Source: an uncultured Pseudoflavonifractor sp. (GTDB taxonomy: Bacteria; Bacillota; Clostridia; Oscillospirales; Oscillospiraceae). From it: a stretch of DNA of 64,000 nucleotides. The position numbers were made by a program, and so were the translations under genes. Shown here one piece after another: positions 23,630-35,617 of this stretch; position 1 is the stretch's first letter; each line of letters begins with the position of its first letter. The notes beneath the pieces were generated by a model that was not told the DNA's origin, ran no database searches, and saw only the letters and a list, made by a program, of their open reading frames with translations. The DNA lies in NCBI GenBank assembly GCA_947651395.1, contig CANSYW010000004.1:1-64000 (forward strand), written 5' to 3'.

Positions 23630-24025
23630 ATGGCTGCTACCAAAAAAGTGGTGCGTCGTCGCCGCGAAAAGAAGAACGTTGAAAAGGGTCAGGTGCATAT
23701 CCGCTCCTCCTTCAACAACACCATGATCACCGTCACCGACACGCACGGGAACGCTCTGAGCTGGGCGTCCTCCGGCGAGATGGGCTTCCGGGGCTCCCGG
23801 AAATCCACCCCCTTCGCCGCTCAGACCGCCGCCGAGACTGCCGCCAAGGCCGCCATCGAGAACGCGGGTCTGAAGAGTGTGGAGGTCTACGTGAAGGGGC
23901 CCGGCCAGGGCCGTGAGGCCGCCATCCGGGCGCTTCAGGCCGTGGGCCTGGAGGTCACCCTCATCAAGGATGTGACTCCCGTGCCCCACAACGGCTGCCG
24001 TCCGCCCAAGCGCCGCAGAGTGTAA
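23630..24025 (+). CDS. rpsK: 30S ribosomal protein S11
   Basis: [46 protein letters not shown]...[16 protein letters not shown]. Confidence 0.98.
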
Positions 24026-24043
24026 GAAGGAGGAGAATCCAAT

Positions 24044-24646
24044 ATGGCTAAGAATATGCAGCCCATTGCCAAGCGCTGCAAGGCGCTGGGGATCTCCCCC
24101 GCCGCCATGGGCTATGACAAGAAGACCACCAACCGCAAGCCGAAGGCCAATGTGCGCCGGAAGCAGAGCGAGTACGCCACCCAGCTTCAGGAGAAGCAGA
24201 AGGTCAAGTTCGTCTACGGCATTCTGGAGAAGCAGTTCCACTCCTACTACGAGAAGGCCATCCGTATGCCCGGCGAGACCGGCGAGAACCTGCTGATCCT
24301 GGTGGAGCGCCGTCTGGACAATGTGGTGTACCGTCTGGGCTTTGCCATGACCCGCCGTGAGGCCCGTCAGCTGGTGAACCACGGCCACTTTACCGTCAAC
24401 GGCAAGAAGGTCAATATCCCCTCCTACCTGGTGAAGGTGGGCGACGTGATCGAGGTCAAGGAGTCCAGCCGCCAGAGCGTGAAGTTCAAGCGCTTTGTGG
24501 GCGAGGACGCCATCATCGTCAACGTGCCCCAGTGGCTGGAGAAGGAGAAGAACGCCCTCAAGGGCACCGTGACCAAGCTTCCCGCCCGGGAGGACATCGA
24601 CCTGCCCATCGAGGAGCATCTCATCGTCGAGTTGTACTCCAAGTAA
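24044..24646 (+). CDS. rpsD: 30S ribosomal protein S4
   Basis: [51 protein letters not shown]. Confidence 0.97.
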
Positions 24647-24717
24647 GCCATACCCTCGCCCCGGCAAGCAACCAAACAGGCGGTGGGAAACGCCGCCCCA
24701 TTGAAGGAGGGTAATGA

Positions 24718-25665
24718 ATGGTTGAAATTGAAAAGCCCCGCATCGAATGCGATGACAACAGCGACACCAGCTACGGGAAGTATGTGGTAGAGCCCCTGGA
24801 GCGGGGCTACGGTACCACTTTGGGCAACGCCCTGCGGCGTGTGCTCCTTTCCTCTCTGCCCGGCACGGCGGTGACCTCCATCAAGATCAACGGTGTGCAG
24901 CATGAGTTCTGTACCATCCCCGGGATCAAGGAGGATGTGACCGAGATCGTACTGAACGTCAAGTCCATCATCGCCAAGCTCCACTGCGAGGGTGTGAAGA
25001 CGGTCTATATTGAGCAGAACGGTGAGTGCGAGGTCACGGCCGGCGATATCAAGGCTGACGGTGAGGTGGAGATCCTCAACCCCGAGCTTCATATCGCCAC
25101 TCTGGGCCCCGGCGCCAGCCTCAACATGGAGCTGACCCTGGCCCACGGCCGGGGCTATGATCCCGCCGAGCGCAACAAGAACGCCCAGACCGTCATCGGA
25201 GTTATCCCTGTGGACTCTGTCTACACCCCGGTGAAGAAGGTCAACTACACAGTGGAGAACACCCGTGTGGGAGATCGTACCGACTTTGACAAGCTGACCC
25301 TGGAGGTGTGGACCAACGGCACCATCGACGCCCGTGACGCCGTGAGCCTTGGCGCCCGCATCCTGGTGGATCACTTCCTCCTGTTCACCGATCTCTCTGA
25401 GACTATGGGCTCCGCCTCCACTGTGGTGGAGAAGGCCGAGGCCCAGCGGGACAAGGTGCTGGAGATGACCATCGAGGAGCTGGATCTCTCCGTGCGCAGC
25501 TTCAACTGTCTGAAGAGGGCCAACATCAACACTGTGGAGGATCTGATCTCCAAGACACAGGATGAGATGATGAAGGTCCGCAATCTGGGCCGCAAGAGCC
25601 TGGAGGAGGTCATCAACAAGCTGGCCATGATGGGCCTGAGCCTTGCGGATGACGAGAATAACTAA
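24718..25665 (+). CDS. rpoA: DNA-directed RNA polymerase subunit alpha
   Basis: [35 protein letters not shown]...[22 protein letters not shown]. Confidence 0.98.
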
Positions 25666-25690
25666 TACACGCCGAGAGGAGTGAGAGAAA

Positions 25691-26032
25691 ATGCCTGCAG
25701 TTCGTAAACTGGGAAAGCCCACTGACCAGCGTATGGCCATGCTTCGCGCCATGACCACCTACCTGCTGGAGAACGGCCAGATCAAGACCACCGTGACCCG
25801 TGCCAAGGAGGTGGCTCCTCTGGCGGAGAAGATGATCACCCTGGCCAAGAAGAACAATCTGGCGGCCTACCGTCAGGCCATGGCCTTCATCACCAAGGAG
25901 GATGTGGCCAAGAAGCTCTTTGACCAGATCGGACCCAAGTACGCCACCCGTGACGGCGGCTACACCCGCGTGGTCCGCATCGGCCCCCGCCGGGGCGACG
26001 CCGCTGAGATGGCCATCGTCCAGCTGGTGTAA
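25691..26032 (+). CDS. rplQ: 50S ribosomal protein L17
   Basis: [37 protein letters not shown]...[23 protein letters not shown]. Confidence 0.98.
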
Positions 26033-26209: not shown

Positions 26210-29155
26210 ATGAGACGAAGGCTCATGGCGGTGATATGCGCCCTGGCGCTGCTGACGCCCTGTCTGTTTGGGGCCGAGGCCGCGCAGGAGGCGGAGCAGA
26301 CCCTGCGATGCGCTGTGCTCTACGCGGGAGACGGGGAGAACTGGCGGGACGCCTACTCCCATCTGGAACAGTCCCTTTTGCTGAATATGACCCTTCAGGG
26401 GGTGGACGTGTCGGGGAGCTACTCTCTGGAGGGCTACGATGTTCTCTACCCCGATCCCAGCGTGATGACGAGCGCCGGGGCCGACGCCCTTCGGGAGGAG
26501 CTCACCGCCTTTGCCGCGGAGGGGGGCGCCCTTTTCCTGGGAAATGAATTCTGGAATTTCCTCCCCGCGGAGGTCATCGGGGCCTGGGAGTTTGTGAAGC
26601 TGGATCACTGCCCGGCGGGCGGAGCGCTGACGGTTCACGAGGTGGAGGGGGATCTGAAGGAGCTTCAGGGCATCATCACCGACTTTGCATCCCTCTATCC
26701 CGACTATATGGACTATGAGCGCCTCAGCGGCTATGATTACGGCTACGCCGTGAAGGCCGGCACCGCGCAGGTGCTGGTGAGCGAGGGGGAGCTGGGGCTC
26801 TATACCATGAACCGCTACGGAGAGGGCTGGGTCTTTTTTACCAACCCCCTTCTGCCCAATATCTATTCGGTCAACGGCTTCTCCCTGAACAGCCGGAGTG
26901 AGGCCCAGGTCTCCCTGGCCAACTCCACCGCCGGGGCCAATCAGCTTATCCGCAATGCCTTTGCCGGTTTTGTGTCCAAAAAGAGATTCGGATACGCCCC
27001 CTACCGGGTCTTCGGGGTGCTGGGCCGGCCCTCCATGGCCTGGGAGCTCCACCTGGAGGATGTGACCGGGATGTCTCTCAACACCGCCCAGCCTTTTATT
27101 GACCTCACGAGACAGGCCGGGCAGATCCCCTCCTTCTCCCTTACCCGCTCTACCTATTACTGGCTCTCCCGGCTGGAGAGCGTCACCTATGCCCTGAACC
27201 GGAACGGGGAAGGGGGCATGGACTTCCAGATGGATTTCAACGAGAGCGCCTACTCCTCGGGTACGCACGTGGCCTTTGAGGAGGGCGGTTGGTTCCGGCT
27301 GGGAGGCATCGACGGCGCCGGCGGCAGCTACTTTACGGACTATCCGGAGTTCGACCAGCGGGTGTATCCCTATGTGGCCGACCTGAACGGGGACGGAAAC
27401 CTGGATCTGCTCTGCGGCGGAAGCGACAGTGAGATCCGGTTCTATGCCGGCGTGGGTGGAAAAGAGCGCTTTACCCTGGATGGGGAGGGCCATATTCTGG
27501 CCCAGGTCCCCGGCGGGTATGCCGCCCCCGTGGCCTTTGACGTGAACGGCGACGGGATGTGGGACATCATCTCGGGCTGTGAGGACGGGAATCTGTACTG
27601 GTTTGAAAATCAGGGCGGCTTTCAGTTCGAGCCTCAGGGCATTCTTCTGCGCACCGGTCTCACCGGCCAGGTCTTCCCCGAGGCGGGGGACTGGGACGGG
27701 GACGGCTGTCCCGATCTGATGGTGGGGAGCAACCAGGGGGTGCTGCGGCTCTACCCCGGCGCCTCCAGGCGCGCGCTCCGGGTGTCTCCCCGCCGGTATC
27801 GGGAGCTGTCCGGTCACTGCGGCGATGTGGAGGGAGACTGGCTGGCGCCCCGGATGACCGACTTCAACGGCGACGGCCGTACGGATCTGGCGGTGGGCAC
27901 CTTCCACGGCTACGTGGCCCGCTTTGTCCAGAACCCGCAGGGGACGCTGGACTTTTGCGGTTATATCACCGCTGATGAACCCAACTACAAGGGCGATCAC
28001 AATCTGAAATTTGGAAACAACAGCGTGCCCTGTTTTGCGGATCTGAACGCCGACGGCGCCATGGATCTGATCGTGGGCAGCCTGGAATACGGCCTGGCCT
28101 ATCCCATCGACGACCCCAATTTCCCCTATCGGGAGGCCCTGCAGGCCGAGGTGAAGGCCATTCTGGATTCGGGCAGCTACCTGGGGCTGCACTACTACAC
28201 CAATGTGGGCGCCACCAGGGAGCGGGAGCTCTGGGAACTGAATGCCCACAAGCGGGCCCTTGAAAGCTACGGCGCGGACATATCCCGCATTGGCTGCAAC
28301 CAGCACACCTGGCATCTGAGTGCCAACGATCAGACCCAGTCCTTTGAGGCCATGTGGGATGCGGGACTGCTGTGGAACTCCGGCTTTGAGCCCCCCCGCA
28401 GCGCCATTGTCCCCCAGGTCAGCGCCGAGAATGTGATGGCCCTGCCCTTCTTCCTGACCAAGGACGGGAGGAGGACACTGCTGATACAAAACTGTTCCAC
28501 CTACACCTACGTAACAGAGCCCTGGGACAGTATCTCCGCCAAATACGGTATGCCCACCTGTGTCTACTATCACTGTGACTGGATGTTCCTGCCCGATATT
28601 GAGGCGGAGGTGAAGGACAAGATCCGGCAGCTGGACCGGTTCCAGAGGGCGTATGAATATAACTTCGTCCGGGAGGATCAGATGATGCTGGCCACCGCCG
28701 CGGCCTACAATCTGAAGCTGGATTGCCGCCGGGAGGGGGAGACCCTCACCCTGACCCCCCATGGACTGCGCACCGACTTCCCCCTCTATCAGGAGGACTA
28801 CCAGAACGCCTGCGGCGTCCGTATCAGCTTCAGCCAGGAGGTGGACGTCTCCGGGGTGAGCACCGACGCCGACGTGTGGACGTGGATCAACAATGAGTTA
28901 TATGTTGGGCTGAATAGTCCTGTTTGTATTCGGTTTGACATCCCCCAGCCCCAGGGGAGCCACCTGACCAGAGTGAACCTTCCCGCCCTGATCACCAGAG
29001 GGGAGGACGGGGTCACCCGGCTGGAGTTCCGGGACGGGGGGATGATGCAGGTCTGGGTCGACGGCCCCGTCCAGGTCCTGACCCCGGGCTGGACGGTGGA
29101 GGGAGACCGGATCACCGGGTACGGCCCCGCCGGAACGCTGGAGCTTATTTACTGA
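26210..29155 (+). CDS. Secreted FG-GAP/VCBS-repeat protein with flanking enzyme-like domains (unknown function)
   Basis: Signal peptide; five Ca-binding-type repeats (DLNGDGNLDLL, DVNGDGMWDII, DWDGDGCPDLM, DFNGDGRTDLA, DLNADGAMDLI). Confidence 0.8.
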   Translation: MRRRLMAVICALALLTPCLFGAEAAQEAEQTLRCAVLYAGDGENWRDAYSHLEQSLLLNMTLQGVDVSGSYSLEGYDVLYPDPSVMTSAGADALREELTAFAAEGGALFLGNEFWNFLPAEVIGAWEFVKLDHCPAGGALTVHEVEGDLKELQGIITDFASLYPDYMDYERLSGYDYGYAVKAGTAQVLVSEGELGLYTMNRYGEGWVFFTNPLLPNIYSVNGFSLNSRSEAQVSLANSTAGANQLIRNAFAGFVSKKRFGYAPYRVFGVLGRPSMAWELHLEDVTGMSLNTAQPFIDLTRQAGQIPSFSLTRSTYYWLSRLESVTYALNRNGEGGMDFQMDFNESAYSSGTHVAFEEGGWFRLGGIDGAGGSYFTDYPEFDQRVYPYVADLNGDGNLDLLCGGSDSEIRFYAGVGGKERFTLDGEGHILAQVPGGYAAPVAFDVNGDGMWDIISGCEDGNLYWFENQGGFQFEPQGILLRTGLTGQVFPEAGDWDGDGCPDLMVGSNQGVLRLYPGASRRALRVSPRRYRELSGHCGDVEGDWLAPRMTDFNGDGRTDLAVGTFHGYVARFVQNPQGTLDFCGYITADEPNYKGDHNLKFGNNSVPCFADLNADGAMDLIVGSLEYGLAYPIDDPNFPYREALQAEVKAILDSGSYLGLHYYTNVGATRERELWELNAHKRALESYGADISRIGCNQHTWHLSANDQTQSFEAMWDAGLLWNSGFEPPRSAIVPQVSAENVMALPFFLTKDGRRTLLIQNCSTYTYVTEPWDSISAKYGMPTCVYYHCDWMFLPDIEAEVKDKIRQLDRFQRAYEYNFVREDQMMLATAAAYNLKLDCRREGETLTLTPHGLRTDFPLYQEDYQNACGVRISFSQEVDVSGVSTDADVWTWINNELYVGLNSPVCIRFDIPQPQGSHLTRVNLPALITRGEDGVTRLEFRDGGMMQVWVDGPVQVLTPGWTVEGDRITGYGPAGTLELIY

Positions 29156-29173: not shown

Positions 29174-30691
29174 ATGAATTCCGCTGTGATGATGCTGGAG
29201 AATACCGTTCGGCACTTTCCCGACAAGACCGCCGTCCGGGACGAGTGGGAGGGGCTGACCTTTCAGGCGCTGAGAGAACGGGCCCTCTCCATTGGGGGCG
29301 GGCTCGCCTCGAAGCGCGGGGAGAGACGGGGCATACTGCCTGTGGTGGTCTATCTGCCCAAGAGCGCCGACGCCGTGGCCTGTTTTGTCGGGGCGATGTA
29401 CGCCGGGGAGCCCTATGTGCCCGTGGCCGCCGACATCCCCATGCTGCGGCTCCAGAGCATTCTCAAAAGCCTGCGTCAGGGTCATCTCATCACCTGCCCC
29501 CAGCTGGCGGGAAATCTGGAGGGGCTGGATCTGACCGGCTTTACCGTCCATATTTCCCGGGAACTGCGGACGCTGCCCCCTGACGAGGCGGGGGCTATGG
29601 CCCGGTTGGAAGAGGTCCGGGATGTGGATCCCATCTATATCATGTATACCTCCGGCTCCACCGGTACACCCAAGGGGGTGACCATCCCCCACCGGGGGAT
29701 CCTGGATTATGCCCACTGGCTGGAGGAGACCTTCCACTTCGACGAGAAGACCGTGCTGGGAAACCAGTCGGCCTTCTATTTTGACAATTCCACCCTGGAC
29801 ATCTACACCATGCTGTACACCGGCGCGGAGATGGTCATTATCCCCGAGGTGCTCTTCCGCTTTCCGGCCAAGCTGCCGGAGTTCATTGAGGAGGAGGGGA
29901 TCAACGCCGTCTTCTGGGTGCCCACGGTGATGATCGCCGTGGCCAACTCCGGTATTTTGGCTCAGAAGGCCATGCCTGGGCTGAACAAGATCCTCTTCTG
30001 CGGAGAGGCCATGCCCAACCGGCAGCTGAACATCTGGCGCAGGGATCACCCCGGCGCTCTTTACGCCAATCTCTACGGCCCCACCGAGATCACCGACGTG
30101 TGTACTTACTATGTGGTGGACAGGCCCTTTGAGGACGCCGATCCCCTCCCCATTGGCCGGCCCTGCCGGAACATGGGAACGGTGGTGCTCACCGAGGAGA
30201 ATACCCAGGCGGCGGTGGGAGAGACCGGGGAGCTGTGCGTGCTGGGCAGCGGCCTGGCCCTGGGCTATTGGAACGCCCCTGAGCTCACCCGGGCGGCCTT
30301 TGTCCAGAATCCCCTGTGCCCGGACTACGACCAGCGGCTCTACCGCACCGGCGACCTGGCCTATGTGGCCCCCGACGGGCTTTTGATGTTTGTGGGCCGG
30401 AAGGACTCCCAGATCAAGCTCCGGGGCAACCGGATCGAGCTGGGAGAGGTGGAGGCGGCCTGCAAGACCCTTCCCGGGGTGGAGAACGCCTGCGTCCTCT
30501 TTGACGCCGGGAAGGAGGAGATCGTCCTCTTTGCCCAGACGGGAGAAGCGCTTGTACCGCGGAAGGTGAATCTGGAGCTGCGCAAGCGGCTGCCTGCCTA
30601 TATGCTTCCGGGCCGGCTGGTGTGCATGGAGGCCCTTCCCCAGACGCCCAATGGGAAGATCGACAGAGTCAAGCTGAAAAGCACCTTTTGA
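29174..30691 (+). CDS. DltA-like amino-acid adenylating ligase
   Basis: Adenylation motifs YTSGSTGTPKGV, NLYGPTEITD, YRTGDLAYVAPDG, GRKDSQIKLRGNRIELGEVE, PNGKIDR; followed by carrier protein and MBOAT. Confidence 0.9.
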   Translation: MNSAVMMLENTVRHFPDKTAVRDEWEGLTFQALRERALSIGGGLASKRGERRGILPVVVYLPKSADAVACFVGAMYAGEPYVPVAADIPMLRLQSILKSLRQGHLITCPQLAGNLEGLDLTGFTVHISRELRTLPPDEAGAMARLEEVRDVDPIYIMYTSGSTGTPKGVTIPHRGILDYAHWLEETFHFDEKTVLGNQSAFYFDNSTLDIYTMLYTGAEMVIIPEVLFRFPAKLPEFIEEEGINAVFWVPTVMIAVANSGILAQKAMPGLNKILFCGEAMPNRQLNIWRRDHPGALYANLYGPTEITDVCTYYVVDRPFEDADPLPIGRPCRNMGTVVLTEENTQAAVGETGELCVLGSGLALGYWNAPELTRAAFVQNPLCPDYDQRLYRTGDLAYVAPDGLLMFVGRKDSQIKLRGNRIELGEVEAACKTLPGVENACVLFDAGKEEIVLFAQTGEALVPRKVNLELRKRLPAYMLPGRLVCMEALPQTPNGKIDRVKLKSTF

Positions 30692-30703: not shown

Positions 30704-30949
30704 TTGATGAACGACATTGAGCAGGCCATTTACGACTTTATCCGAGAGAATTTCAATATTGGGGACGACCCCGACTTTACCCCCGACGTCCATCTCTTTG
30801 ACTCCGGCTTTGTGGATTCTCTGGGAGCCATTGAGATCGTGGAGTTTGCCGAGGAGCGCTGGCGCATTGAGATCACCCAGCGGGATCTGACCCTCTACCC
30901 CATGAACACGGTGGAGGAGATCGCCGCCGTGGTGGCCTCCAAGCTGTAA
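30704..30949 (+). CDS. DltC-like acyl/aminoacyl carrier protein
   Basis: 81 aa with phosphopantetheine site FDSGFVDSLGAIEIVEFAEE. Confidence 0.9.
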   Translation: MMNDIEQAIYDFIRENFNIGDDPDFTPDVHLFDSGFVDSLGAIEIVEFAEERWRIEITQRDLTLYPMNTVEEIAAVVASKL

Positions 30950-30950
30950 G

Positions 30951-31454
30951 ATGGCGCTGATCCGTGACGGTCAACCCCGGGATCTGGAGAGGGTGATGGG
31001 CCTTTACCGGGCCCTGTACGACCATTTGGAGGGCCATGGCCTGGCCTTTCGACTGGAGGAGGAAGGACTGGAGTCCTCCCTCAGGACCATGCTACGCTCG
31101 GAGCGGTGCTTCCTGGCGGTGGCCGAGGAGGGGGAGGAGCTGGTGGGCTTCCTGTGCGCCGGGGTGACGAGGATGGATCGGAAGCTCTCCTATGGAGGTG
31201 GAAATACCCTGGGCCTCATCCACGATCTGTACCTGACTCCCCCTGCCCGGAAACAGGGACTGGCGGGGGAGCTGCTGGATCGGGCGGAGGAATGGATGGT
31301 TCGGGCGGGGGCCGGAGTGGCCGAGTGTCAGGTGGTCTGGGACAACGGTCTGGGGCAGGAGTTTTGGGCCCGGCGGGGTTATGCCCCGGTAAGCGTTACC
31401 CGGGCCCGGGCCCTGGGCGCGAAGGAGGACGGTCATGTGGTTTCTGCAGACTGA
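30951..31454 (+). CDS. GNAT-family N-acetyltransferase
   Basis: IHDLYLTPPARKQGLAGELLDRAEEWMVRAGAGVAECQVVWDNGLGQEFWARRGY. Confidence 0.85.
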   Translation: MALIRDGQPRDLERVMGLYRALYDHLEGHGLAFRLEEEGLESSLRTMLRSERCFLAVAEEGEELVGFLCAGVTRMDRKLSYGGGNTLGLIHDLYLTPPARKQGLAGELLDRAEEWMVRAGAGVAECQVVWDNGLGQEFWARRGYAPVSVTRARALGAKEDGHVVSAD

Positions 31455-32575: not shown

Positions 32576-33472
32576 GTGGGGCGGATGAAGAAATTTTTCC
32601 AAAGGGGCGGCTGCTTTCTGCTGACGCTGTGCCTGCTCTTCCTGGGGCTGGACGTCTGGCTGACCCGGGGGGAGTTCATTGAGAAGGGCGAGTGCTTCCA
32701 CCACAATGACTTTGAGAAGACCCTTCTGGCCCACGGGAGCGAGAGGGTCTGTGACAAGATCTTTTTCGGCAACTCGGTGGTCATCTCCTCCTATGTGGAG
32801 TGGGCCTCCGATTCGGGGTATGTGAACTTCGGCATCGACTACGGGGTGATCACCGACCTGCGGGACATGCTCCTGCGGGGAGATATCACCGTCACCGAAG
32901 ACATCGTTCTGGGACTTAACTATTTTGTGTTCTACGACGACATGGACACCAACCCCACCTATCCCTGGCACCGTGGGAGCCTGGAGCCCTACCTCTACTT
33001 TCAGAGGGACAGGCTTCAGGCCCTGGGGGAGACCCTCTGGGAGGGCTTCCGGGAGACCGGGCGGCTGGAGCTTCCCCGATATGGGGAGGAGGCCAAGTTC
33101 ATGTACTCCGGCCAGCTGGATGAAAAGGCCATGGCGGAGAAGGTGGCCACCCACCGGGAGCTCTATTGGGGCCTGGGACTGGAGCACTATGGGGAGAATC
33201 TGGCCGCCCTGGGGGAGGTCATCCGCTTCTGCAGGGAAAACGGGATCCGCCTGCGGGCGGTGTGGCTGCCCTGGAACCCCACGGTTCCCATGCCCGAGGG
33301 GCCGGCCGGGCTTCGACAGGCGGCGGACAAGATCCTGGCGGAAGCGGGCATTGAGGTGCTGGACATGGAGGACGGCCTGGCGGCGGACTGCTTCCACGAT
33401 GTGGGCCACCTCAATATGGAGTATGGCGCGTTTGTATTTACGGAGGTGATGGATCCATGGCTGAAGTCCTGA
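32576..33472 (+). CDS. DltD-like SGNH/GDSL-type envelope protein
   Basis: N-terminal TM; FFGNSVV serine block and C-terminal DVGHLN; position after the MBOAT gene. Confidence 0.65.
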   Translation: MGRMKKFFQRGGCFLLTLCLLFLGLDVWLTRGEFIEKGECFHHNDFEKTLLAHGSERVCDKIFFGNSVVISSYVEWASDSGYVNFGIDYGVITDLRDMLLRGDITVTEDIVLGLNYFVFYDDMDTNPTYPWHRGSLEPYLYFQRDRLQALGETLWEGFRETGRLELPRYGEEAKFMYSGQLDEKAMAEKVATHRELYWGLGLEHYGENLAALGEVIRFCRENGIRLRAVWLPWNPTVPMPEGPAGLRQAADKILAEAGIEVLDMEDGLAADCFHDVGHLNMEYGAFVFTEVMDPWLKS

Positions 33473-33600
33473 AGGGATGGAAAAAATTTCGTCTGACCCT
33501 CCCGGGTCAGCTCCTGCTGGCCGTGGTCTATCTGGCCATGCTCTGCGCGGTGCTGGTCTTTTTTACCGGCAACGGCGAATTTATCTACGAGGGCTTTTAA
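33457..33600 (+). CDS. DltX-like 47-aa membrane microprotein
   Basis: Translated by hand: MAEVLKGWKKFRLTLPGQLLLAVVYLAMLCAVLVFFTGNGEFIYEGF*. Single TM and terminal FIYEGF; overlaps the 3' end of the DltD-like gene; absent from the ORF track. Confidence 0.75.
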   Translation: MAEVLKGWKKFRLTLPGQLLLAVVYLAMLCAVLVFFTGNGEFIYEGF

Positions 33601-33679: not shown

Positions 33680-35617
33680 ATGGAGCATAGCAAGCGCGGC
33701 GGAGGCAAGCGGCTGGAGCGGCGCAAATATAACCCGTGGCTTTGGCTGGCCACTCTGCTTTTGGGGCCTCTGGCCATTCTCTTCTGTGTGCAGACCATCA
33801 CCTTTGCCTCCCTGTTCAAGGCGTTTTCCTGGTTCTTTACCCATCTGGGGGCGGGGGTGCTTTGCTACCTGGCTCTCCTGTTTGCCATGGTCATCATTCT
33901 GGCCCTGATCTGGAAGATCTGGAGCGCCTTTCTCATTCTGGCCATCCCGTCGGTGACGCTGGCGGTGGTGAACCGGATCAAGGAGAGTATTAACGGTACG
34001 CCCCTGCTGCTGAGCGATTTTACCCTGGTGGGGGACGCGGATGCGGTGGCCGACTTTGTCAACCCCCAGTTCAGGATCGGCCTGGGGGTTTGGGCGGGTC
34101 TGATCCTGACGGTGGTGGGCATCGTGCTGTCCACCCGTATCGGCTGGCGGCCCAAGGAGCTCACTCCCCGGTGGAGCCTGCGCCGGAAGGTCATTGAGAT
34201 CTCGGCGCTGCTGCTGGCCTTGGTGATGTTCCTCCCCTTTGGGTTCTATATGGGCCCCAAGGGGGAGTCCCAAGCGGAGCGGAACCAGCGGCTGGGCCTG
34301 CTGGGAGGGATGTACAGCGCCATTTTGAACCGGGCCTTCCAGAGGGAGGATTACGACAAGGAGGATCTGGACAAGCTTCTGAGTCAGATGGGGCAGTCCC
34401 CCTCCCCCCAGCCCTCGGCGGAGGCCACCCAAACGCCGGAGCCCACCCCAACCCCGGAGCCGGTGACGCCCAACGTGATCCTGGTCATGTCGGAGAGCTT
34501 CTGCGACCCCACGGTGATGCTGCCGGGAGTGGAGTTCACCACCGATCCGGTGCCCTATTACCACGATCTCGCCTCCAAGTGGCCCTCAGGGGAGTTTTAT
34601 TCCAACACCTATGCCGGAGGGACAGGGAGCGTGGAGATGGAGGTTTTCACCGGGATCCCCATGGCCTTCCTCCGGGAGGGAGAGGATCTGACCAATCTGC
34701 GGGGCGAGGGGGTCTATGACCGCCTGCCCTCCATTGTCAAAAGCTTTAAGAGCGCCGGCTACACCACGGAATTTATCCACAACTATACCACCCGGCTCTA
34801 CAACCGGGTGGACAACCTGCCCGCCATCGGCTTTGACAAGCTGACCTTTGAGGACGGCTTCCCCGAGGACGCGCAGTGGGACGGCCCCTACCTGCGGGAT
34901 ATGGAACTGACCTACGCCATGATCCGGGCATTTGAGGAAAAGGAGGAGGGGGAGCCCCTGTTCCTCTACGGTCTGACCATGGAAAATCACCAGCCCTACT
35001 ACGCCGGAAAATTCCCGGAGCGCTCCGGCCTGGAGCCCGGGAGCGACAAGCTGGGCTCCGGGGAGCTGGAAACGGTGGAGGCTCTGGTCTACGGCATTCA
35101 GGCCGCGGATCGGGCGCTGGGGGCCCTGATCGAGTACTTCGAGACGGTGGAAGAGCCCACCATCATCGTGTTCTGGGGAGACCATCTGCCGGGGCTCTAC
35201 GTGGACGACAACCGTACCATCTACTCCATGCTGGAATATGTGCCCACAGTGAATACCCTGGAGTGGGACGCCCAGATCATGAAGCGGATGCACACCACCC
35301 CCTTCCTGGTGTGGAACAACTATGACGCGCAGATCGAGGTGCCCGAAAGCACCGGGCCCAGCGCCCTGGGCGTCCACATCCTCAACTGGGCGGGAGTGGC
35401 CAAGCCCCTCTACTTCCAGTGGGTGGAGCAGAGCATGGACACCATGGAGCTTTACCGGACCAGACTCTATATAGACGATGAGGGCGTGCCCTACAAGCAG
35501 CCCCCTGAGGAGGACAAAGAGGTGGTGGAGCGCTACCGCAACCTGGTCTATGATCTGGTTTACGGAGAGGGGCTCACCGCCGAAGAGATGACCAAAACCG
35601 AAAGTTCGAGCGGATGA
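33680..35617 (+). CDS. LTA synthase family (sulfatase-fold) membrane protein
   Basis: N-terminal TMs then NVILVMSESFCDPTVM, YAGGTGSVEMEVFTG, IVFWGDHLPGLY. Confidence 0.9.
   Translation: MEHSKRGGGKRLERRKYNPWLWLATLLLGPLAILFCVQTITFASLFKAFSWFFTHLGAGVLCYLALLFAMVIILALIWKIWSAFLILAIPSVTLAVVNRIKESINGTPLLLSDFTLVGDADAVADFVNPQFRIGLGVWAGLILTVVGIVLSTRIGWRPKELTPRWSLRRKVIEISALLLALVMFLPFGFYMGPKGESQAERNQRLGLLGGMYSAILNRAFQREDYDKEDLDKLLSQMGQSPSPQPSAEATQTPEPTPTPEPVTPNVILVMSESFCDPTVMLPGVEFTTDPVPYYHDLASKWPSGEFYSNTYAGGTGSVEMEVFTGIPMAFLREGEDLTNLRGEGVYDRLPSIVKSFKSAGYTTEFIHNYTTRLYNRVDNLPAIGFDKLTFEDGFPEDAQWDGPYLRDMELTYAMIRAFEEKEEGEPLFLYGLTMENHQPYYAGKFPERSGLEPGSDKLGSGELETVEALVYGIQAADRALGALIEYFETVEEPTIIVFWGDHLPGLYVDDNRTIYSMLEYVPTVNTLEWDAQIMKRMHTTPFLVWNNYDAQIEVPESTGPSALGVHILNWAGVAKPLYFQWVEQSMDTMELYRTRLYIDDEGVPYKQPPEEDKEVVERYRNLVYDLVYGEGLTAEEMTKTESSSG

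Follow-up and report, generated by a model that had tools for sequence, protein, structure and literature searches.

A 47-codon gene at positions 33457–33600 closes an acylation cassette in an uncultured Pseudoflavonifractor sp., and its product very probably works, by analogy with DltX in the D-alanylation of teichoic acid, as a transmembrane acyl-Tyr shuttle between a carrier-protein-dependent MBOAT acyltransferase and an SGNH transferase. We studied the gene in the window, that is, the whole 64,000-nucleotide stretch of contig CANSYW010000004.1 under analysis. A peptide of this length is one that gene-finding easily misses, and this one had been noticed in a sequence-only reading of the same DNA, whose idea of a shuttle (a single-TM protein with an FxYxxF end, encoded beside adenylation, carrier, MBOAT and SGNH genes) is well supported by conservation, by selection and by an MBOAT that has no motif of its own.

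The microprotein gene and its conservation

Translated from an ATG start, the ORF gives MAEVLKGWKKFRLTLPGQLLLAVVYLAMLCAVLVFFTGNGEFIYEGF*, exactly the peptide that the sequence-only reading had worked out by hand. The single TM helix and the FIYEGF end described there were also found: residues 19–37 form the strongest hydrophobic stretch (mean Kyte-Doolittle 2.79) and the only peak, and the sequence ends in FIYEGF, within which Tyr44 is the presumed acyl carrier. Four positive charges and one negative charge precede the hydrophobic stretch, and no positive charge follows it. Because positive residues lie only on its N-terminal side, the microprotein is predicted to be a single-pass protein with N-in/C-out topology.

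As had been noted, the ORF overlaps the 3' end of the SGNH gene, sharing 16 nt with it, and is the final gene of the acylation block in the window. Its GGAGG ribosome-binding site lies 10 nt upstream of the ATG and is kept at equal spacing in nearly all stand-alone relatives, being absent at two starts (L119 and L120, both from genomes with a split operon, described below). Within the window, GGAGG stands at a comparable spacing before only 65 of 941 ATGs, and when all six frames were cut at stops into segments of 20 aa or longer, the microprotein alone among the 1503 had an FxYxxF end.

A scan of GTDB genomes with an SGNH profile yielded 25 related loci, and a shuttle sequence lies downstream of the SGNH gene in every one of them, as a stand-alone ORF in 19 and fused to a polytopic membrane protein in 6. 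Loss of the frame or the motif in relatives would have spoken against the microprotein; both recur in 25 of 25 loci, with F-[ILV]-Y-E invariant. Across an alignment of 20 stand-alone sequences, in which the start of L077 was guessed (counted from an ATG further upstream it would have 61 aa), Y25, M28, F36, G40, F42, I43, Y44 and E45 are invariant. The motif Tyr is thus present in 20/20 and the terminal Phe in 16/20; the last Phe is not essential, since four sequences end in FIYELG (L057 and L058) or FIYEL (L060 and L063).

Seven pairs were compared outside the overlap, and in every one of them pN falls well short of pS: 0.18 against 0.53 for the window and the same-genus locus L053, and 0.011 against 0.185 for the L057/L058 pair. 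By this codon-level measure the microprotein gene is under purifying selection. An ORF of only 47 codons that overlaps another gene might be suspected of being an untranslated chance overlap, a reading to which we assign next to no probability: frame, start, ribosome-binding site and motif are kept across Clostridia and Planococcus, pN stays below pS, and six loci have the same domain fused to a larger protein. We rejected it on conservation and pN/pS together, and on this comparative evidence the ORF is a real gene.

Carriers of the cassette include Agathobaculum desmolans, Flavonifractor sp. An306, Pseudoflavonifractor, Avoscillospira and Planococcus chinensis, a range that covers Oscillospiraceae, Butyricicoccaceae, other Clostridia and one Planococcus; most carriers are gut Clostridia. 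The microprotein gene has a patchy distribution: among 60 close relatives, the window genome counted in, only 3 have the SGNH protein, and of 391 genomes from the class, a profile search found 9 with a strong microprotein match. This profile search worked better than a search of 295 genomes with the single 47-aa sequence, which gave two convincing extra matches, the rest (E >0.01) being noise. The Planococcus cassette has all seven parts and sits isolated between unrelated genes, which suggests horizontal movement.

The cassette and the missing hexapeptide

Seven genes on the forward strand make up the cassette (Table 1).

Table 1. Cassette genes and ribosome-binding site in the window
Feature	Positions	Strand	Basis
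Large secreted FG-GAP beta-propeller protein	26210–29155	+	Pfam FG-GAP_3, 4.2e-25
Amino acid adenylation enzyme, DltA-like	29174–30691	+	AMP-binding, 2.5e-64; AA-adenyl-dom, 347 bits, above cut-off
Carrier protein, FVDSLG attachment motif	30704–30949	+	Pfam PP-binding, 3.5e-6
GNAT acetyltransferase	30951–31454	+	Pfam Acetyltransf_1, 1.4e-11
MBOAT O-acyltransferase, 378 aa	31435–32571	+	Pfam MBOAT, 1.1e-25
SGNH-fold transferase, DltD-like, one N-terminal TM helix	32576–33472	+	Family alignment, AlphaFold2, Foldseek
GGAGG ribosome-binding site of the microprotein	33442–33446	+	Within the FTEV codons of the SGNH gene
DltX-like acyl-shuttle microprotein (putative)	33457–33600	+	Translation, family alignment, purifying selection, topology

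The FG-GAP protein is a constant member, found in 21 of the 25 related loci; in the other four (L061, L062, L066 and L074) the contig starts close upstream of the core genes. The GNAT acetyltransferase, present in many related cassettes and missing from some, is an accessory part. In the family alignment of the MBOAT, His265 and His305 are invariant. Likewise, Ser67, Asp275 and His278 of the SGNH protein are invariant in 25 sequences and fit, as read from the alignment, a catalytic triad of Ser and DxxH. The AlphaFold2 model of the SGNH protein (pLDDT 93) was matched by Foldseek to SGNH esterases (E 3e-5) and to the DltD structures 6pfx and 7dxm (E 7e-4). By sequence, the window protein had no Pfam match and the SGNH profile found no PDB sequence above cut-off; the homologue in L061 clears Pfam DltD (28.5 bits vs 22.7).

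By eye, from the ORF list, the genes for ribosomal proteins S11, S4 and L17 and rpoA (23630–26032) lie directly upstream, and the cassette seems to be placed behind a housekeeping operon. Directly after it lies a gene for an LtaS-like sulfatase-family membrane protein (33680–35617). We considered this gene as a further part of the cassette and rejected it, its only strong match being in L053, with one weak match elsewhere.

A 2025 account of MBOAT/SGNH acylation shows that the acyl group is carried on the Tyr of a C-terminal hexapeptide, which has the general form FXYXXF and reads FIYANF in PatA of N. gonorrhoeae (PMC12148441). DltX supplies this hexapeptide to DltB in trans as a separate protein, and in non-Dlt MBOAT/SGNH pathways it is fused and there is no DltX-like microprotein (PMC12148441). 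The hexapeptide is absent from the C-terminus of all 23 MBOATs of the cassette family, the window protein among them. The 15 other non-DltB MBOATs of these genomes, on the other hand, all have it fused, with ends such as NPFLYFRF, NPFIYFRF and AQDFIYGQF. Three of these 15 are the other three MBOATs of the window genome itself; one of them (L044:6034-7548, contig C13), which ends in AQDFIYGQF and has a weak SGNH match adjoining, offers a built-in contrast. As the window MBOAT has no motif of its own, and the other MBOATs of its genome have theirs fused, it would be the sole MBOAT seen there that needs a shuttle in trans, and by analogy the microprotein is its obvious supplier.

A tree of 44 MBOAT rows separates DltB, the motif-fused MBOATs and the cassette family into three well supported groups on long branches. 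With three groups and very long stems the tree could not be rooted, and which two groups are closest, and whether the separate shuttle arose once or twice, is beyond its resolution.

Mechanistically, the adenylation enzyme would activate an amino acid and load it onto the carrier protein. At the cytoplasmic face, the MBOAT would accept the aminoacyl group from the carrier and pass it through a membrane funnel to Tyr44 of FIYEGF. In turn, the aminoacyl-Tyr would be presented to the extracytoplasmic SGNH protein and the group moved onto the SGNH Ser. The SGNH protein would then esterify an acceptor outside the cell, probably some glycopolymer of the cell surface that is handled together with the FG-GAP protein. 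We infer the acyl-Tyr chemistry of this scheme from the published biochemistry of DltX/DltB/DltD and PatA/PatB.

Fused and split forms and the FG-GAP protein

The shuttle is found in more than one genetic setting. In six loci of Flavonifractor-type genomes (L070, L071 and L073–L076) it makes up the C-terminal domain in a polytopic protein some 400–520 aa long (e.g. L075:6842-8293), and this fusion partner gives at best a weak PMT_2 signal, in one protein. In the linked operons of family f156 the order is SGNH, microprotein, FG-GAP. In three further genomes, G898, G866 and G965 (L119, L120 and L123), the microprotein gene lies directly upstream of the FG-GAP gene, and the pair stands among unrelated genes. 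G898 and G866 have the MBOAT and SGNH genes on another contig, where there is no shuttle match and the MBOAT has no motif; G965 is a weaker case, as its MBOAT gene runs into the contig end and SGNH was not found. Each of the three has exactly one strong shuttle match. They are drafts in which mis-assembly is possible, and as three species of one genus they agree with each other.

The split pairs suggest that the microprotein and the FG-GAP protein also belong together. It could then be argued that the microprotein serves chiefly to partner or anchor the FG-GAP protein in the membrane, its FIYE end being a binding or recognition motif and not an acyl carrier, and the gene order in the split genomes, where it lies away from MBOAT and SGNH, and in the f156 operons would agree with this. 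We consider such a role improbable: in the window and in most loci the microprotein gene overlaps the SGNH gene, at the opposite end of the operon from FG-GAP, its motif equals the proven acyl-shuttle motif (PMC12148441), and the window MBOAT would be left as the only one in its genome without a shuttle. The FG-GAP protein itself has a propeller flanked by other domains, and its structural model reached pLDDT 77. Its best PDB match by Foldseek is PelA (9cgy, E 1e-6, TM-score 0.23–0.26), and by this weak likeness to an enzyme that modifies the Pel polysaccharide it is possibly a polysaccharide-acting enzyme; the likeness is also a hint, from the model, of a polysaccharide acceptor for the acyl shuttle pathway.

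Relation to Dlt and other acylation systems

The sequence-only reading had likened the peptide to DltX and the block to a dlt operon; that the peptide is a DltX proper, or the block a canonical dlt operon, is not supported. The window microprotein has no match to Pfam DltX (PF12459, curated score 25 bits), and searches of Pfam and NCBIfam with it returned nothing above cut-off. PF12459 gives sub-threshold matches in 6 of 20 relatives (best E 0.024) and none in the window genome at E 10. Comparison of the microprotein family with PF12459-type sequences by hhalign reports 88.6% probability over 10 columns, which are the terminal motif only, so that common ancestry and convergence on the motif are not separable by it. 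From these comparisons we take the microprotein to be DltX-like in function, its membership of the DltX family being not shown.

The Dlt-like enzymes and carrier of the cassette fall below the equivalog cut-offs of Dlt, the MBOAT and the SGNH protein far below. On the DltB model TIGR04091 (cut-off 375), the window MBOAT scores 136 bits and the MBOATs of two relatives 156–164, against 450–525 for three canonical DltB proteins. The adenylation enzyme reaches 275 bits on DltA TIGR01734 (cut-off 560) and the carrier protein 28 bits on the DltC model (cut-off 68). The window SGNH protein has no match to DltD TIGR04092, and the one matching relative tested scores 23 vs 150 bits.

The adenylation pocket, at positions set by sequence motifs and not by structure, reads D-N-L-W-L-C-L-D-V in the window, against DLMSLC(T/L)VA in four of the five canonical DltA enzymes compared. 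Within the family it is nearly constant: most members have DN-F/L-W-x-C-L-D-V, and one subgroup has DVMWxALDV. Most of its positions differ from DltA, with which it has in common the amine-binding Asp and often the Cys at position 301. Prediction of the amino acid from the pocket, which is clearly non-DltA, was tried and let us assign no substrate. The transferred group is likely an amino acid, and D-Ala is possible; it is not established as such because the pocket differs from that of DltA.

Two adenylation genes are adjacent in L060, L063, L070, L071, L073–L077, L117, L118, L121, L122 and L124, with three in L118. A second pocket type, DNFWVALVD, is found in many of the loci with two such genes; where it was read, the pocket of the second copy differs, and two amino acids may be activated.

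The microprotein could still be the plain DltX of a divergent dlt operon that D-alanylates lipoteichoic acid as in Bacilli, sequence drift hiding the family. Its cassette has the five functional parts of dltXABCD, and Cys301 is common to DltA and the window enzyme. A search of the window genome (78.5% complete) and of four others that carry the cassette found no DltB above cut-off, leaving a niche that the cassette could fill, and the LtaS-like gene follows it. We regard this as unlikely. The separate MBOAT groups, a pocket that is unlike DltA at most positions and yet nearly constant within the family, the two adenylation enzymes with differing pockets in many cassettes, and the constant FG-GAP gene, which is not part of dltXABCD, all argue against it, as does the near restriction of the LtaS-like neighbour to one same-genus locus. 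The shuttle mechanism is common to this explanation and to the one we prefer, and our confidences in the two overlap.

We describe the cassette of the proposed acyl-Tyr shuttle as a sister system to Dlt rather than Dlt as libraries define it. More tentatively, and at somewhat less than even confidence, we propose that, alongside Dlt, it represents a second membrane aminoacylation system that depends on a carrier protein. With its distinct MBOAT clade, it would place onto a polysaccharide, and not onto teichoic acid, an amino acid that is not D-Ala. Its shuttle would be a mobile module, occurring as a stand-alone peptide, as the C-terminal domain of a polytopic protein that may be glycosyltransferase-like, or as an FG-GAP-paired gene. 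We found no description of it in the open-access literature; an earlier account is possible in subscription papers, which lay outside the search. The cassette is distinct and apparently undescribed.

According to the 2025 account, only Dlt combines a carrier protein with a shuttle microprotein encoded separately (PMC12148441); the cassette has both and yet falls outside Dlt as the libraries draw it. It would mean that gut bacteria have a surface modification so far unrecognised, the microprotein being a missed gene required for reconstituting it, and it lets one probe how far the acyl-Tyr shuttle is an exchangeable part.

Compared with DltX (PF12459), the microprotein has the same traits: about 50 aa, a single TM helix, a C-terminus predicted to lie outside, and an FxYxxF end with an invariant Tyr that would act in trans to a motif-less MBOAT. 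It has FIYE where the canonical DltX examples compared mostly have FIYN. In DltX two residues are completely conserved, a Leu within the TM part and the C-terminal Tyr (PMC5541007). At the spacing of the former, 16 residues before the motif Tyr (Tyr-16), the canonical examples compared have Leu or Phe and the microprotein family an invariant Met; the family also has a Tyr at Tyr-19 that does not vary. The TM parts are not reliably alignable. The dltXABCD operon resembles the cassette in setting an adenylation enzyme, carrier, MBOAT and SGNH protein alongside a microprotein. The DltX gene, however, comes first, usually just upstream of dltA (PMC5541007), whereas the microprotein gene is last (after SGNH, as in the window) or mid-operon, among parts under the DltA, DltB and DltC cut-offs, and unlike DltX it may form part of a polytopic protein or lie apart from the MBOAT and SGNH genes. 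MBOATs of the PatA type (PatA/PatB and similar) have the same hexapeptide and, presumably, the same acyl-Tyr chemistry with an SGNH partner; their motif is within the MBOAT and their donor is acyl-CoA, whereas the window cassette has a separate gene and a carrier protein. DltB/DltD, finally, are alike in pairing an MBOAT with an SGNH protein and in using a carrier-protein donor, and differ in that the window MBOAT belongs to a separate clade and scores under the DltB cut-off, and that the window SGNH protein has no match to the DltD model.
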